Source: Odontesthes bonariensis | Lineage: Eukaryota; Chordata; Actinopteri; Atheriniformes; Atherinopsidae | DNA length: 64,000 bases | Assembly (NCBI RefSeq): GCF_027942865.1 | Contig: NC_134526.1 | Location: 19,945,784-20,009,783, forward strand | Direction: 5' to 3' | Part shown: in pieces, positions 9,304 to 56,728 of the stretch | Numbering within the stretch: position 1 is the first letter of the stretch | Layout: every line of letters starts with the position of its first letter | Notes under the pieces: model-generated | Databases searched by the model: none | What the model was told of the DNA's origin: nothing | The model's input: the letters and a program-made list of their open reading frames with translations, nothing else | Program-made: the position numbers and the translations under genes

Positions 9304-15832
<6,529 letters not shown>

Positions 15833-26460: not shown

Positions 26461-26633
26461 TGTGCGGCAAAAGCCGCCCAAGCTGACGACGTGGCTGACA
26501 TAAGTCTCAACCCGGGGTTTCAGTGAACCGGTGTGATTCAAATTGGCAAACCGACTGCGCTCATTGCTTGTGCTATACTTCAGGAGGCTCTAACCGAGTT
26601 ATACTGATACTTTGACCCACTCACTGTGCAACC

Positions 26634-27907
26634 ATGTCGGGGAAAATCAGGAACCGAAGTGCTGCTAATGCCGACTCGATAGCTGGTGGTGTGTCCTGTG
26701 ATGAGCGCATCTTGCGAGATATTCATCAGTTGTACACGGATCCCGACAGTGGTGAGTTGGCTGACTCGGGTGGTCCCTCGTAAAATGCTTAAAAATATAA
26801 CTATTATAAATATATATACTGTTAAGATAGTTAGTCTTTTGTCGACCAGTGGTTAGCTAGCTAACCTACTAACGTTATGGGGCATGTGGGGAGGGCTAAG
26901 CGCTAGCTAAGTTTGCTAATAAGGATTTATGCTTCGGCTGACGTTGCATTTATCAAAGCTAATGCCATTTATATTGCCCATCTACATCCACTGCTTCGGC
27001 AGACTATAACATACTCATTAGTGATGACTCAGCTGCAGCGTTTGGTGACGTAACTTGAAATTGAAGGTGTGTGTTCCAACTTGAAATACGCAGTTACAGG
27101 TGGGTCGCTTGGAATTCTGGGTCCTGTAAAGAAAAAACTGTATAGAAAAACAGACATGTCCATCCCTCATCCAAAACTGAGGAGTGAATAAGTTATTAAG
27201 AGGTGCAAATAAAAACTTGTGGAAACGTTTTTGGACCCACTCTTCCTCCATCCGTTGCAGGTGCAACCACAGCACACTGATGGTGCCCCAGTTTTTCTTC
27301 ATCAATACAGACTCCATTTCTTTTTACACTGAAGCCCCAGTTTATAAAGACAAACCTATGACGATAAAAATGTATTGTTTTAACAGGGTTGATTACAGTC
27401 GGCGAATCTGTCGGTGTGAAGTTGCTCCCACCCAGGAAAAAAATCACAGTGATGCTCATGGGCAACCACTCTGCAGGGAAGAGCTCCTTCATCAACTGGT
27501 AAGGTTCTGTAGGCTACAGAAGAGAAAGGAAAGAAAATGGCAAGCAATGCAGCCACCCGTTACCGTAGAAGACCCTGTACTCTCCTAAGTCTTAACCTAA
27601 ACCCGTCCATCTTAATGGGTCTGAGACCCTCAGTATACAACACTGTAGAAAAATGAGTAAACAGCCACCATAGATGGTAGGTTTCATTCCTAAGCTGTCT
27701 CTCTACTTACTACAGGTATGTGGAGGAGCACATCCAGCGCACTGGAGTGGCTATTGAGACGCAGGGCTTCAGCTTTATTACAAGTGGACGCAAGAGAGAA
27801 TCTCTCACAGTGAGTGAAACAGTGCATTCTTTTTTTTTTATATCAGCGTCGATAGTCCAGAAGAAAACACAAACATTGCAATTATGCTTGTGCTAATCGA
27901 AATGGAG

Positions 27908-27944
<37 letters not shown>

Positions 27945-30900
27945 CCATCATGACAACCAGTTGCGTTCCCTCCAAGTCATGCCTCATTGTAGAGGTCAAG
28001 TGAACCGTGAAGAGCTCTCTGAAGTAATTGACATCTGCTTTACCCACCATCTGACAATTGTTTTTTTTTTTTTTTTTTTTTCTGTATCCAGGGAAATGCC
28101 ACCTTTCATCTTTATCCACATTTCAAGCCTCTGCAAGAGTTTAAAGGTGAGTGTTTTTCTTAAAGGGTTAATGGATGATATTTTAAACCGTAACGGAGCA
28201 GTGAACCACTATTTGCTATGTGAAGTCATCGCAATGTAATGATGATGTCACCAGAGCGTGCAGCTTGTCACTAAATGAGTCTTTTTGTCAAAACATGACA
28301 TGACTGAGATTGTGGAGTGCATTATCATCTTAATTGCTGTTGAAACCCAAATATAATAATCTCTGCCCCCGCCGGATTGTTTTCCAGGTGTTTCAGAGTA
28401 CCTGAGCACAGAGATCTGCACATCGCGGCAGAAACGGTTCAGTCTGGTGACATTTGTAGATTCTCCAGGCTTGGTGGATGGTGATATGAAGTATCCTTTT
28501 GACGTGGACGAGGTTATTCTATATCTCGGTAGGTTTCCATGCTTTCCTCTCAGCTGTTAATGTTATGTCAAACTGGAGTTTTGTTTTAAGGCTTTGTGGC
28601 GGGCGTTTATTGAATTCTGTGTCTAAATGGGAAGAATTTAAAAACCCTAAACGAAACAAAATTGGTCAAAAGCGGAATGCCATAGCTTAATAATCCATCA
28701 CTTTGCAGTAAAATGTGATGGGAATACATTTAAGCAATTTGATATTTGTTAATATTTGTAGGTGGTAAATAATGAATCTTCTCGCTGTCACTTTCAGGTG
28801 ATCTGTGTGACCTTATTATGGTCTTCTTTGATCCCATGGGTCAGGCTCTGTGCAAGCGCACCCTCAACATTGTCGAGAGCCTGAATGAAAAACACGGCGA
28901 CCGGCTGCGCTTTTACCTGAGCAAGGCTGATGAAGCCGGGGGAGAGTCGGACAGACAGGTAAACGCAGCAACAGCTCCGCTCACTTCAGTTTAACAAGCG
29001 TGTACGTTTGTTAACTTGGTCTATATTATGATTAGCACTCATTAAAATGATATGGAGAAAGAGTGGTGTGTGTCTATAAAGCAATTTTTACCCACATTCT
29101 TTATTTATTAGGTTAAAAGTGTGTGTAGTCTCTTTGTGAACCTATGTCAGCAGTGAAGTTTTGCCTGTTTGCACTGCCCTCATTTGCATTTTGAGACAAC
29201 AGAGCAGCCACTTCTTTTCAAAGTGCACCGATTGATTTCTGCGTTGAAGTATAGAAATGTTTCCCGTAAGCAGATGGGCATTCGCTGCATGAAAGGAAAG
29301 ACTTCCCTGCAGTCTCTTTCTGACTCATTTACGTTTGGTGACTGGCTGTTTCAGAGAGTAATGATGCAGATTGTCCAGGAGCTCTGCAAGCGGCCTGGAC
29401 TCAACAAGTGTGGTTTTGACATGCCCACCATCTACATCTCTAATCCAAGCAAGGTAAGAGTTGATATCTCACGAGTTCCAGGTGACTTTTAAGTTTTATA
29501 GTCCTACACCTCCGGCTCTTCCCATGTTCTGTACATTAATATGAAGTCACTGCTATTTATTCACCCTTTTATTTGTGTTCCTTGTCTTCAGCCCAGTCGC
29601 TGCGTCAACCAAATTGAGGAGACTTGCCGTACCATCGAGAAAACTATCAACCAGACAGTCCAGAATACCCTCAACTCCCTGGAGAGGGACTGTGAGCTCA
29701 TCAGTGAGGCCATCACAGAAACGCTCAGCAGTGACAGGTGAAACACAGATGCCTTCATTGTAATTCCTGCTGCAGTGCTGTCCCATTCCGTTGAATTCTG
29801 CTCATGGTCTCAGTGGGATTTATGCCAGGGTAAATGTCAGTTCCCATTTGTCCCACAAAGAGAACAATCGGTTCATTTTTACTTGATCTATGCCGAGGAG
29901 GTGTGTGGGTATAAGGGCTGGGATTATTTGGGACTCTGAACTAGAAACGCCGCTTATTTCCTCTGAGAGATTTGTATTTGTCAAACTGTTTTCGTTGAGT
30001 CTTGTTCATTTCAGCTAACTGTGGCCTGGTGCAGATAATGACTGTAATAAAGACGTATAAGAGCATCAGTCAGTGAGGCCTTCAGAGTGTAACCCTGACT
30101 CTTTGGTCTCGCAGACAGACCAGTGTGGTGAACCGACGTGCGCGCTGTAAGAGCTGCTTCCTGACTCTCTTGGGTTTCTGTGTGCCTCTGGCTCTGCTGG
30201 CCTTACTGGTGCTGGGCGCTTTGTCCAAGGATCTGCTGGAGGTGGCTCTGGGCCCCCAGGGGACCGAGGCGCTCTCGCTCTACCTGGTGAGTGTCCTTCA
30301 CTGCTCTGTTGTATCATTGCAAATGGTACTTGAGAGGAACTAAAGTCCAGTCGTGGCTGCTCTTGTATTGGACAGAAACCCATCGTGAGAGTATTTGACT
30401 CCCTGTCGGGGGAGCAGCAGCTTTACAGCTGCGGTGGACTGGTCCTTCTCTCCTTCCTGCTGCTCATCATCGCACGCTTCTCCTTCAGGTACGAGACCTC
30501 GGTGCCATCGGAGCATTTAGTGCGATGATGCTCAAACTGCTACTGCACTGTTACTTAGTCACTGTTTTAATTTTTTATCTCTGTCCTTACTTACTCTCTA
30601 ACCCTAATGGACTTTTATTTTATCAGTCAGCATTTACCCTCTTAGTTGGGATGCAGTTTTTATTCTCCAAAAAGCATAAAGTTGAAGATCAAGCTCACTT
30701 TTTGAACATGTTGAGCACTGATAGTGTATTATTGTTATAGTCATTTTAAAGTGTGTGTGGGGGGGGGGGGGTAATCAGAGAATCCAAGAGATTTGAGCGC
30801 AAACCTTTGCTAAAGTCTCAGTGCTTGAGTTCCCTGTGTGGGCTGTGGCTTGTTTTTAATCATCACGGTACAAATTTCAAGGTTCATTCACTCTCTTTAT

Positions 30901-31881
30901 CTTTGTCTCGACAATCTGAAGCCATCAGCTATTCTAATCAGCTGGTCAGCAGGCAACAGGTGAAAATGTTTTTTTTTAAGGTAGATAATCCATGGTTCAT
31001 AATATAAAGAAATGGCTGTTTGCAGCAACAGTTGAGGCATTTAAGCAAATCTTCTGAGATATCCTCTTAGGATTGCTGGAAATGCAAATCAAAACTCTTT
31101 GTTTGACTGCAAAAGACCTTCAGAACGATGCAGCAGACTGGTGTTCATGGTGCTCTGTTCCACTGAGCAGTGACACTTTCACAAACACAACCTTTGTGGA
31201 ACATTTACCTGCGTCCTCCCCTCTGTATCCAACGTCACAATGTTCGAATCTGAAGAATCCTGAAGCATTTTGGATGCGGGGCCTGCAAACTGTTAAAGTC
31301 AAAATGGAATATTTTGACTTCACCGAGCAAAGAGTTTGAGAAAAGGTCCAGAATATAATAAAAAGAACTTCTGTCCAACCGTGAAGCTCAGGGTTGATTG
31401 ATGGTGCTTTGGGCTTATGTTCCTATGAAGAAACCATGGAAGTAAATATGTCGTAATTTGTGGGAAAAAAAGTACAAGTTGGAAAGAATGACTATAAACA
31501 CAAATTAAAGTGCACGATATACAAAATCAAGGGTTGCAAGTTGAAAGCCCCTCAGAGTTCCTGTGAGCTGAAGTTCATCAAAAGAGCAGTGCATGGTAAG
31601 TTAAATACAAATGGAATTGATCTCTTAGATTTTTCCCTTTGACTTTTCGCAGAACTCGCCCGACTCTATCAGGCAAACAGAAACGGCAACTACAGGAGAA
31701 GCTGGGGTACGTTCAGGAGGTGGTCAAGTCCAAAAAGGTGAGCGTGCGTGACTCAATCTGAAACGGTCCCGGCGGTAAAAAAAACTCTTGGGTTTTTAAC
31801 GGTCTACTTCTCTCCCTCTAGAAAAAGCTCTATGAGGAGTATCTACGCCAGAGTGTCAGCGATCAGGACATGGACTTGTAA
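26634..31881 (+). CDS. EHD/sarcalumenin-like dynamin-superfamily GTPase with C-terminal membrane hairpin, 12 exons, 451 aa
   Basis: Exons: 26634-26751, 27387-27498, 27716-27809, 28092-28146, 28388-28528, 28798-28958, 29355-29453, 29592-29737, 30115-30286, 30376-30488, 31653-31737 and 31822-31881 (1356 nt, phases all closing). The G domain shows P-loop GNHSAGKSS (65-73), a candidate switch Thr in TGVAIETQGF, G3 motif D151-S-P-G154 in LVTFVDSPGLVDG, and G4 motif S215-K-A-D218. The order and spacing (PF..V..YL..DLIMVFFDP, then the SKAD block, then P.IYISN) resemble EHD proteins and sarcalumenin. After a short helical segment (about 275-315) come two hydrophobic stretches, about 323-345 and 385-403, separated by some 40 residues. 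A basic, lysine-rich tail ends in SDQDMDL. There is no EH domain and no signal peptide. A role in membrane shaping or organelle anchoring is inference from family and topology. I do not recognise an established gene name. Confidence 0.88.
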
Positions 31882-32509: not shown

Positions 32510-32515
32510 ATTAAA
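32510..32515 (+). terminator. Candidate polyadenylation signal of the GTPase gene
   Basis: ATTAAA, the common AATAAA variant, followed directly by an A-rich run. It lies 629 bp after the stop codon at 31881. The interval 31882-32530 shows no other coding signal and is taken as 3' UTR. Confidence 0.4.
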
Positions 32516-34754: not shown

Positions 34755-37700
34755 ATGGAGCTGTCGGACGAGAGGATGAGCTCGAAGAATGAAGACACAG
34801 GTATTAAAAAAAACGGAAGCTTAAACTTTAATCTGCTTTATAACTCGCCGTGAGGCGGACAGCAACAAATTTAAAGCTTGGATTTTCCTTTGTTGAAATT
34901 GTCGTTAACTTGTTGCTCGTGTTCGGGGGAACCTGTTGGAGTTATGGCGCCGCCGGTAGAAGATAAACGGCCTGTTAGCATCGTTGACCACAGAAATGAA
35001 CTGACGCTGCTAGCCGCTGGCTAACACGCCAACGCTAACTTAGGCTTCATAGAGGATCTCTATAACAAAGTGAGATTTAAAGCTGTTCAGCTCTCATTTC
35101 ATATTCACTCATTAAGAGTCACTTCTTCTTAATCGTAGCTCTCCAATGAAGTATATCAGTTACTGGTGTGGCAGTATAACATTAAAAAGTGTCACTTAAA
35201 GCTTTTATTGACGCTCAAACAACACAGCAGAAATGTTGACGTACTGTCTACATCACCAGTGGATGTGCTACTTGTAAATGAAAGCGAAAGTATCCATAAA
35301 AGACCTTTGAATACTTTTACTGAAACCTTATTATTGATGCATAAACATGTCAGTGACTTATTCCTGTTGGGCAAGTGCAGTAATAGATAGATAGATAGAT
35401 AGATAGATATACTTTATTGATACCAAGCTGGGAAATTAAAGTACATCATATCTTATAGGCTCATGGGTTTTAGTGTTTTTTCTTGCATCTCGGCCTTTTC
35501 CTGTCAAACAAATGCACATTTCATTGAAACGCAGTGTAGAAAAGTACAGAATGTTGCAGAAAAAAATAAAAACCCCAAAATATACAGGTGTCTTCATTGT
35601 CACCCATGGGCTAGGACTTGTATAAGTGTGCTGTAAAGGCCCTTAGACATGCTGCTGTAAGCAGTGTTGATAGTAATAGCAAAAGTAAATCTGTGGCATT
35701 TTGCCACACTGTGTGTGAGTAAGCTTATTGAAGGGGGGGGATCAAACAACAGAAACTCCAATAACTCCAATAAATCACTCCAACACCAGCTGTTCTCAGG
35801 ATCCTTTTCCTTAACTGCATGTCTTTAAGGTTTAGGTTGCTGGTCGGACGAATATGCAAACTAAAGATGTGATTTACTTGTTTTAGTACTGCATCACCAC
35901 CCTGCTAGACTTTCATAAGAGAAGGGAGTGTTGATTTCCCTTTCTGTCCCTTTCTGTTCTTTTTTTAAATTCTTTTAAACTTCTACAGTTTTCCTTTATG
36001 ACAACCATGACAGGGGAAATTGCAGCCTAGAATCCCTTTGGTATCTTTTTATAGCCTCAGCTGCTTTGTAGGCATCAATTAGCTTCATTTTGAGATCTTC
36101 AGTCAGCTGCTGAAAGGAAAATCTTGCGTTACCATGAAGTTTAAAACATCAGACCTGTTGCACACCTCCTAATTACGGTTTTCTTTTTAATTCACGAAAA
36201 AACAGTAATAGTGCATCTCCATTTTGGAGAATTAGCAGGGGTTTTAGTCGTGCCCTTAACACTTTTTGCATTACTACGCACCAACGGAGCAAATGTCATT
36301 GAAAGAATGTAAAGCACGGCTACCTGTTTGTTATTTTCAGCGGCGAGCCTGCAGGCCCAGCTAGCTGAGTGCCAAGCTCAGATCGAACACTGGCAGGGCG
36401 TGGCGACGATCTGTGAGATGAGCAAACAGGAGGAACTCGCAGAGCTGCAGAAACAATGTGATCAAGAGATCCAGTCTCTGCAGGAGGCTCTCAGAGGTCA
36501 GTGGTTGTGTGAATTTGGCTGTCGCATTCGGTTGTGCATTATCAGCACGATGGTTCGCGTAGGTTTACACACTAAGACGCGGTTTCTTTGCTCGGTCTTT
36601 TTTGTCTTGAGAAAGAAATCAGTCTGTGGACAGTTTGAATTTGGCCTTGTGTGTCCCGTGATCCTCAGACCAAACCTTGGGACGACAGTTGATGCTGTAT
36701 ATTCATCAGAGCTTGGGATAAATGGTCTCATCGTTATTCTATCATCCCGTTCTATTTTTCAGAGACGGCAGCACAGTATGAGGCCAGGATAGCTGTTCTG
36801 CAGTCTCAGCCTGTGGACTGGAGGAGAAGCGGCGGGCATACCGTGGTCAGTGCGCAACTGTCTTTCTTTCTCTCGGTTTCTCTCCAATTTATACTTTGGT
36901 TGCTATTTTTGAACCCCGTCTCTTGTTGCTTGTGCCTGTTAGATTGGCGGCAGAAGGGGCAGGGTGGAGGCCGAGGTCTCCGCTAATGAATCCCAGACAT
37001 CGGTCAACAACAACGTGGCAGAGGACGAGGCAACGTCGCCTTACAGGGGACAAAGTCAGGCAGCGGAGCTGGAGGCGGCAGCAGAAGGAGAGGGAGCCCC
37101 ATTTTCGACGGAGGCGTATTACTCGCTCCAGCACTGTGACTCGGCCTCGTTGTCCTCCTTCTCCTTAGACACACCTTCTCTGCCCAGAAAACTCCTCGCT
37201 CAGGAAGACACCGACTCGCTGGTCTCCACAGGAACTCTGGTGCCTGAAGCTATTTACCTGCCGCCAGCCGGACACCGGCTTGTCACGCACAGCGACTGGG
37301 ACGCACTCAATGCACAGGTAGCGATTTTTAAACCATTTCACCTTTTTTTTTTTACCACTTAATCGACTCTGCTTCTATATAAAAGAAAATGCAGTTACAA
37401 ACACTGGCATCTACACATGTCAAACTGTGCAGTTTTAATTCTCTGAGCTTTTTGGTCTAATCTAAAGTGTCCCTGCGGACTCTGCTGTGATAAAATTGTG
37501 GTGTGTTGAACAGCTGTCGGAGCTGCGAGGGGAAGTGAGTCGGCTGCAGGCTGAGAAGGAGGAGCTGGAAAACGAGCTAGATACACAGACCAACCACACA
37601 CACAAACAGGTGGACGACACCGCTCTGAATATGTGTCCTCTGAGGCGATGCTCACCAGACTATTGTGCAGACTTACACACATGTTGATGCGTTTGTGTGT

Positions 37701-41840: not shown

Positions 41841-56728
<14,888 letters not shown>

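Follow-up and report, generated by a model that had tools for sequence, protein, structure and literature searches.

EHD ATPases shape endosomes and the necks of caveolae, and sarcalumenin (SRL) contributes to calcium storage in muscle. EHDs bind adenine rather than guanine nucleotides (PMC13427840), and the bacterial proteins most closely homologous to EHD and sarcalumenin are reported to have two membrane helices following the GTPase domain (PMC7016017). Here we analyze a gene in a 64,000-nucleotide stretch of the fish Odontesthes bonariensis (contig NC_134526.1, positions 19,945,784 to 20,009,783; the window, to which plain coordinates below refer). The window lies on C26 of its own 945-Mb genome, in which all same-genome searches were made. 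The gene codes for a protein with an EHD-type G domain followed by two predicted membrane segments; it is under constraint, belongs to a known superfamily, has an unusual layout and was not found described in the papers surveyed. Judged by its sequence, this layout appears to be that of the bacterial EHD relatives rather than a fish invention, and the mechanism that we put forward is a reasoned proposal.

The gene has 12 exons on the forward strand (26634–31881), all with GT/AG borders and consistent phases, and its spliced open reading frame (ORF) of 1356 nt including the stop codon yields the 451-residue product of the original prediction. Exon 1 (26634–26751, residues 1–40) contains the start codon and the N-terminal helix region, exon 2 (27387–27498, residues 40–77) the P-loop and exon 3 (27716–27809, residues 77–108) the switch I region. 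Exons 4 (28092–28146, residues 109–127) and 5 (28388–28528, residues 127–174) are followed by exon 6 (28798–28958, residues 174–227), which holds an FFDP motif and G4, and by exon 7 (29355–29453, residues 228–260). The stretch preceding the putative anchor is encoded in exon 8 (29592–29737, residues 261–309), the anchor itself in exons 9 (30115–30286, residues 309–366) and 10 (30376–30488, residues 367–404), a basic tail in exon 11 (31653–31737, residues 404–432) and the C terminus with the stop codon in exon 12 (31822–31881, residues 433–451). A candidate polyadenylation signal, ATTAAA (32510–32515, forward strand), lies ∼0.63 kb past the stop codon.

A protein search of the genome returned at least 20 matches, at least 19 of them in this gene and in a second copy on C7, and one elsewhere at an E value of 7. 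The C7 copy (C7:23449959–23436477, reverse strand) is likewise divided into 12 exons, whose phases agree with those of the window gene, and its exons 2–10 are identical in length to their counterparts there. Such agreement is far beyond chance, and we conclude that the gene is real and not a chance exon chain. The two proteins share 264 of 441 aligned residues (60%), and 169 of 205 (82%) in the G domain. Nonsynonymous (dN) and synonymous (dS) divergence by the NG86 (Nei-Gojobori) method is 0.13 and 2.4 in the G domain and 0.36 and 3.6 overall; as dS is saturated, purifying selection can be read from these values, but age cannot. The constraint proposed from the open frame of the window gene is thus borne out by its sister copy. 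Two reverse-transcriptase-like ORFs, recognized by eye, accompany the C7 copy, one of 424 residues inside its intron 1 (C7:23447566–23448840) and one of 440 residues just upstream (C7:23451263–23452585).

The sequence firmly places the protein in the dynamin superfamily and in the EHD/sarcalumenin family. Pfam assigns Dynamin_N (31.6 bits, cut-off 27) and MMR_HSR1 (25.5 bits, cut-off 21.9) to the window protein, and Dynamin_N also to the C7 copy. Among solved proteins EHD2 and EHD4 come closest (∼2e-8 over residues 58–222), followed by Toc34 at 0.09, and with a profile of both copies the two remain best, though less strongly matched (1.4e-7 and 4e-6). Pfam finds no EH domain in either copy at a maximal E value of 10, as the original prediction had it, and lists no GB1/RHD3-type (atlastin) G domain for either; EHD_N (PF16880) is absent from the Pfam scan, and neither copy is among the seven matching loci in the genome. 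Pfam matches to AIG1, septin, Roc, RsgA and a hormone receptor were below cut-off or weak, and NCBIfam models of bacterial GTPases (e.g. Era) and of DynA stayed far under their cut-offs (best E value over both copies 9.5e-8). From the seven EHD_N loci we compared the four genes with readable exons, which we take to be two EHD (P-loop GQYSTGKT) and two SRL (GPWSVGKS) genes on the basis of these motifs. The two genes read as SRL lie at C26:15451446, 4.5 Mb from the window gene, and at C4:27809307. The fish pair shares 51–68 identities over 198–224 columns with these proteins, whereas EHD and SRL share 88–94 over 206–232 columns with each other (the row EHD_C14a had one exon wrong in this comparison). 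The TFVD[ST]PG and FDP motifs are common to the pair and sarcalumenin, but the pair has GNHS in place of the GQYS of EHD and the GPWS of sarcalumenin, and SKAD in place of the NKAD of both.

The nucleotide-binding motifs had been described as intact. This holds for G1 (GNHSAGKSS, residues 65–73, 27461–27487) and G3 (DSPG, residues 151–154, 28459–28470; DTPG in the C7 copy), which are canonical in both fish proteins, but not for G4, which reads SKAD in both (residues 215–218, 28920–28931, in the window gene) and deviates from N/TKxD. The P-loop lysine is Lys71, and Thr92 is a candidate switch I residue. Since the nearest solved relatives, the EHDs, moreover bind adenine nucleotides, the label GTPase is not established.

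Hydropathy analysis of the window protein gives its two strongest peaks at about residues 321–344 (30149–30220) and 381–401 (30418–30480), with limits set by hand from the peaks and 36 residues between them, in line with the two C-terminal segments originally proposed. A weaker peak at residue 166 (1.64) falls within the G domain. A signal peptide was likewise thought to be missing, and by hydropathy, as distinct from a dedicated predictor, no peak above 1.3 is seen before residue 164; an in-frame TGA (26613–26615) seven codons before the ATG points the same way, an argument that requires coding to begin in exon 1. In both copies the pair of hydrophobic segments is retained, as is a basic tail of short length. 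Identity between them drops at the anchor, to 6 of 33 residues in the region of segment 1 and 7 of 19 in that of segment 2; the anchor thus drifts in its letters and keeps its hydrophobicity. The 36-residue loop between the segments carries a net charge of −2 in the window protein and −5 in the C7 copy, and the stretch after segment 2, part of a tail of 48–50 residues, is basic (+5 and +4). A basic tail together with an acidic loop would fit cytosolic ends.

We collected bacterial relatives by searching DNA with a degenerate P-loop pattern, so that the set is biased to that motif. At least 80 loci match, and in all 80 of those listed the frame stays open past the pattern and shows one common family signature. 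Fourteen with ORFs running off the ends were dropped; the remaining 66 code for 419–578 residues with an assumed start. Their hosts belong to Verrucomicrobiota, Planctomycetota, Kiritimatiellota/Lentisphaerota, Rhodobacterales, Chromatiaceae and Myxococcota. The bacterial proteins have a GNHS[SA]GKS P-loop near the N terminus, D[ST]PG and xFDP in 66 of 66 each, followed by hydrophobic segments that in most cases fall near residues 305–360: at least one peak follows the G domain in 65 and at least two do in 33 (eight proteins have one extra peak within the G domain). The fish pair shares the P-loop, the xFDP motif and a predicted hydrophobic hairpin after the G domain, and profile-profile comparison of the fish and bacterial alignments gives a probability of 99.8% (E value 3e-30) over fish residues 21–295. 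The families differ in G4, which is NKxD in 64 of the 66 bacterial proteins, SKCD in one and not found in another. Among viral contigs no relative was confirmed by protein, by alignment or by two DNA patterns, and a phage search gave three weak matches only (E value 0.4). A scan of genome contigs with the two-copy alignment confirmed none either; it was the P-loop pattern that later succeeded.

To place the anchor we used a bacterial relative, L065, whose residues 9–306 match EHD2 residues 18–317 (543-residue chain) at 2e-40. Phe322 of EHD2 inserts into the membrane (PMC13427840). If the numbering of the 543-residue chain is taken as that of EHD2, the match ends five residues before Phe322, and the first hydrophobic peak of L065 starts at residue 310, four past the end of the match. 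On this alignment, and in an AF2 model of L065, the hairpin appears to begin where EHD2 inserts its tip. The model, of the bacterial relative and not of the fish protein, was built with 44 bacterial sequences (predicted local distance difference test score 91.3, predicted template-modeling score 0.87). It has one helix (274–334) running through the first membrane segment, a turn of about six residues where the fish loop has 36, a return helix (341–372) and terminal helices, the longest at 393–412 and 422–457; the helical part past the hairpin is longer than in fish. A Foldseek search of the PDB with the model returned EHD4 as best match (E value 6.7e-19, TM-score 0.50–0.60), then EHD2, IniA, Fzo1, BDLP and mitofusin.

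We consider it probable that the fish gene codes for a dynamin-like protein of the EHD/sarcalumenin branch that is anchored by a hairpin and serves as a membrane scaffold or tether; its topology, dimerization, nucleotide cycle, membrane shaping and organelle are what we infer for such a protein. The N-terminal helix and the G domain would lie on the cytosolic side, in a presumed order of N-terminal helix, G domain and helices like that of EHD1–4, and a helical stretch would lead up to two membrane helices that form a hairpin, the net-acidic loop being on the far side and the basic tail coming back to the cytosol. The hairpin would sit at the site of the hydrophobic tip of the soluble EHDs, whose membrane-contact point is at the matching place in L065, and would provide a permanent anchor in place of reversible insertion. 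Nucleotide binding would then promote dimerization via the G domains, either in cis, giving a curvature scaffold, or in trans, giving a tether for membranes of an internal organelle. The protein may act alone or jointly with its 60%-identical sister.

Several observations weigh against this proposal. By the simple hydropathy rule, 33 of the 66 bacterial proteins have one or no clear hydrophobic peak. The deviating G4 is found in both fish copies, the pair forms a very long branch in the tree described below, and the 20 residues preceding segment 1 carry a charge of +2 in one copy and 0 in the other. The fish tail of ∼50 residues is moreover shorter than the 89 that follow the hairpin in the L065 model, so that the stalk of the fish protein may be incomplete.

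Atlastin is built in a like sequence, its G domain being followed by helices, two membrane segments and a cytosolic tail (PMC8565484). The protein could hence be a fusion or tethering GTPase like atlastin or mitofusin, in which G domains on two membranes dimerize and draw these membranes together, with the hairpin as anchor and wedge. Mitofusin and BDLP follow EHD in the Foldseek list for L065, and a second, larger dynamin-like ORF adjoins the EHD-like gene in 5 of the 80 listed bacterial loci (L047, L086, L088, L067 and L060), in four directly upstream on the same strand and in one on the opposite strand. These ORFs, of 625–807 residues as read, have the P-loop GPLKSGKS in four cases (the fifth is cut), and both of the two submitted to Pfam are Dynamin_N proteins. 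The title of PDB entries 5owv and 5oxf refers to an oligomerized bacterial dynamin pair with membrane sensing and tethering. This hints that bacterial EHD-like proteins can work in pairs, and the two fish copies could by extension pair with each other. However, the fish sequence and the L065 fold are both nearest to EHD, and sequence searches up to an E value of 10 matched neither atlastin nor mitofusin among solved proteins. We therefore regard a fusion or tethering GTPase of this kind as possible but unlikely.

In a G-domain tree of 72 rows EHD and SRL form a clade (support 100/100), and the fish pair stands by itself, its branch having a length of 7. For the bacteria this tree requires two changes, i.e. 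they do not fall on one side of a branch. Approximately unbiased (AU) tests reject none of three groupings, a clade of all eukaryotic rows (p = 0.336), EHD with the fish pair (p = 0.295) and SRL with the fish pair (p = 0.241), and for this reason we make no claim that the pair branches outside EHD and SRL. Chromatiaceae copies of the bacterial gene (L048, L049, L064, L071, L092 and L119) nest within a clade of Rhodobacterales copies, which suggests a transfer between purple bacteria of two classes.

The two fish copies match all 66 bacterial proteins, with medians of 59 and 67 bits, and score 33–47 bits with EHD and SRL; GNHS, moreover, is common to the pair and the bacterial family and is not found in the fish EHD or SRL compared. 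Animals might then have acquired the gene from bacteria separately from EHD and SRL, a scenario that we consider rather improbable. With the P-loop masked the gap narrows, to medians of 34 versus 22–29 bits for one copy and 43 versus 19–35 for the other, and the bacterial set was itself selected by this motif. With medians of 125 and 113 bits, EHD and SRL are nearer to the bacterial set than the pair is, and xFDP is present in SRL too. The AU test keeps a single eukaryotic clade, the alignment scan of genome contigs yielded no near bacterial donor, and an intron-rich gene of 12 exons in two old copies speaks against a recent transfer. Tentatively, and with less confidence than we attach to the hairpin-anchored scaffold or tether itself, we propose that the pair may represent a third eukaryotic lineage of EHD-type NTPases, present in two copies at the outset of the vertebrates, which kept the bacterial hairpin. 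EHD would have swapped the hairpin for an insertable tip and an EH domain, and sarcalumenin would have become lumenal. Fish would use both copies and mammals would have lost both; the gene is not known from mammals. The fish protein would then be a living intermediate for a bacterial origin of the EHDs.

Genes around the two copies bear on their origin. On one side of the window gene lies a MAPK3-like ERK kinase gene (10517–14546, exons at 10.5–14.5 kb, reverse strand), for which a 39-residue exon piece scores 80.3 bits with MAPK3 and 78.7 with MAPK1. On the other side are a rabaptin-like gene (36313–37362, forward strand; Pfam Rabaptin) and, beyond it, a SERCA gene (44356–53379, reverse strand) in which SERCA1 and SERCA2 are not separable. 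The sole other ERK match above 60% identity in the genome is on C7 at 9.77 Mb, 13.7 Mb from the C7 copy. Near that copy are an SLC2-type transporter (∼9 kb away) and ORFs that we tentatively take to be AIFM3, Pfam and PDB giving no match. As an ERK gene is found on both chromosomes, and as the human genes are at 16p11 (MAPK3) and 22q11 (MAPK1 and AIFM3), the two fish copies may be ohnologues of the early vertebrate duplications. Clusters of many Dynamin_N matches elsewhere in the genome (C3:14750634–14857266 and C26:15730778–15974154) are perhaps expanded Mx-like genes.

The SERCA gene lies ∼12 kb from the window gene, and of the four fish proteins compared, two EHD and two SRL, the SRL on C26 scores best with both copies (40.1 and 46.9 bits), as might be expected of a diverged sarcalumenin copy acting on the muscle calcium store. 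Sarcalumenin is lumenal, whereas the fish pair shows no sign of a signal peptide and has two predicted membrane segments; the fish SRLs share fewer identities with the pair (54–68 over 198–224 columns) than with EHD, and SRL groups with EHD at 100/100 to the exclusion of the pair, though the AU test keeps SRL with the pair. We hold this origin to be very improbable. It is scarcely credible that the locus is a relic without function or that its exons were joined wrongly, given two loci with open frames and identical exon phases, whose G domains agree in 169 of 205 residues although their synonymous sites are saturated.

The strings GNHSSGKS and GNHSAGKS did not occur in any of the papers searched, titles and abstract starts on sarcalumenin, EHD-like and related terms contained no description of such a fish protein, and the word sarcalumenin was not found in the accessible part of a 2026 EHD review (PMC13282721). 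A vertebrate relative with a predicted permanent hairpin, as the bacterial relatives appear to have, links two kinds of membrane attachment, and a fish model would allow tests of what the ancestral membrane-bound form does.

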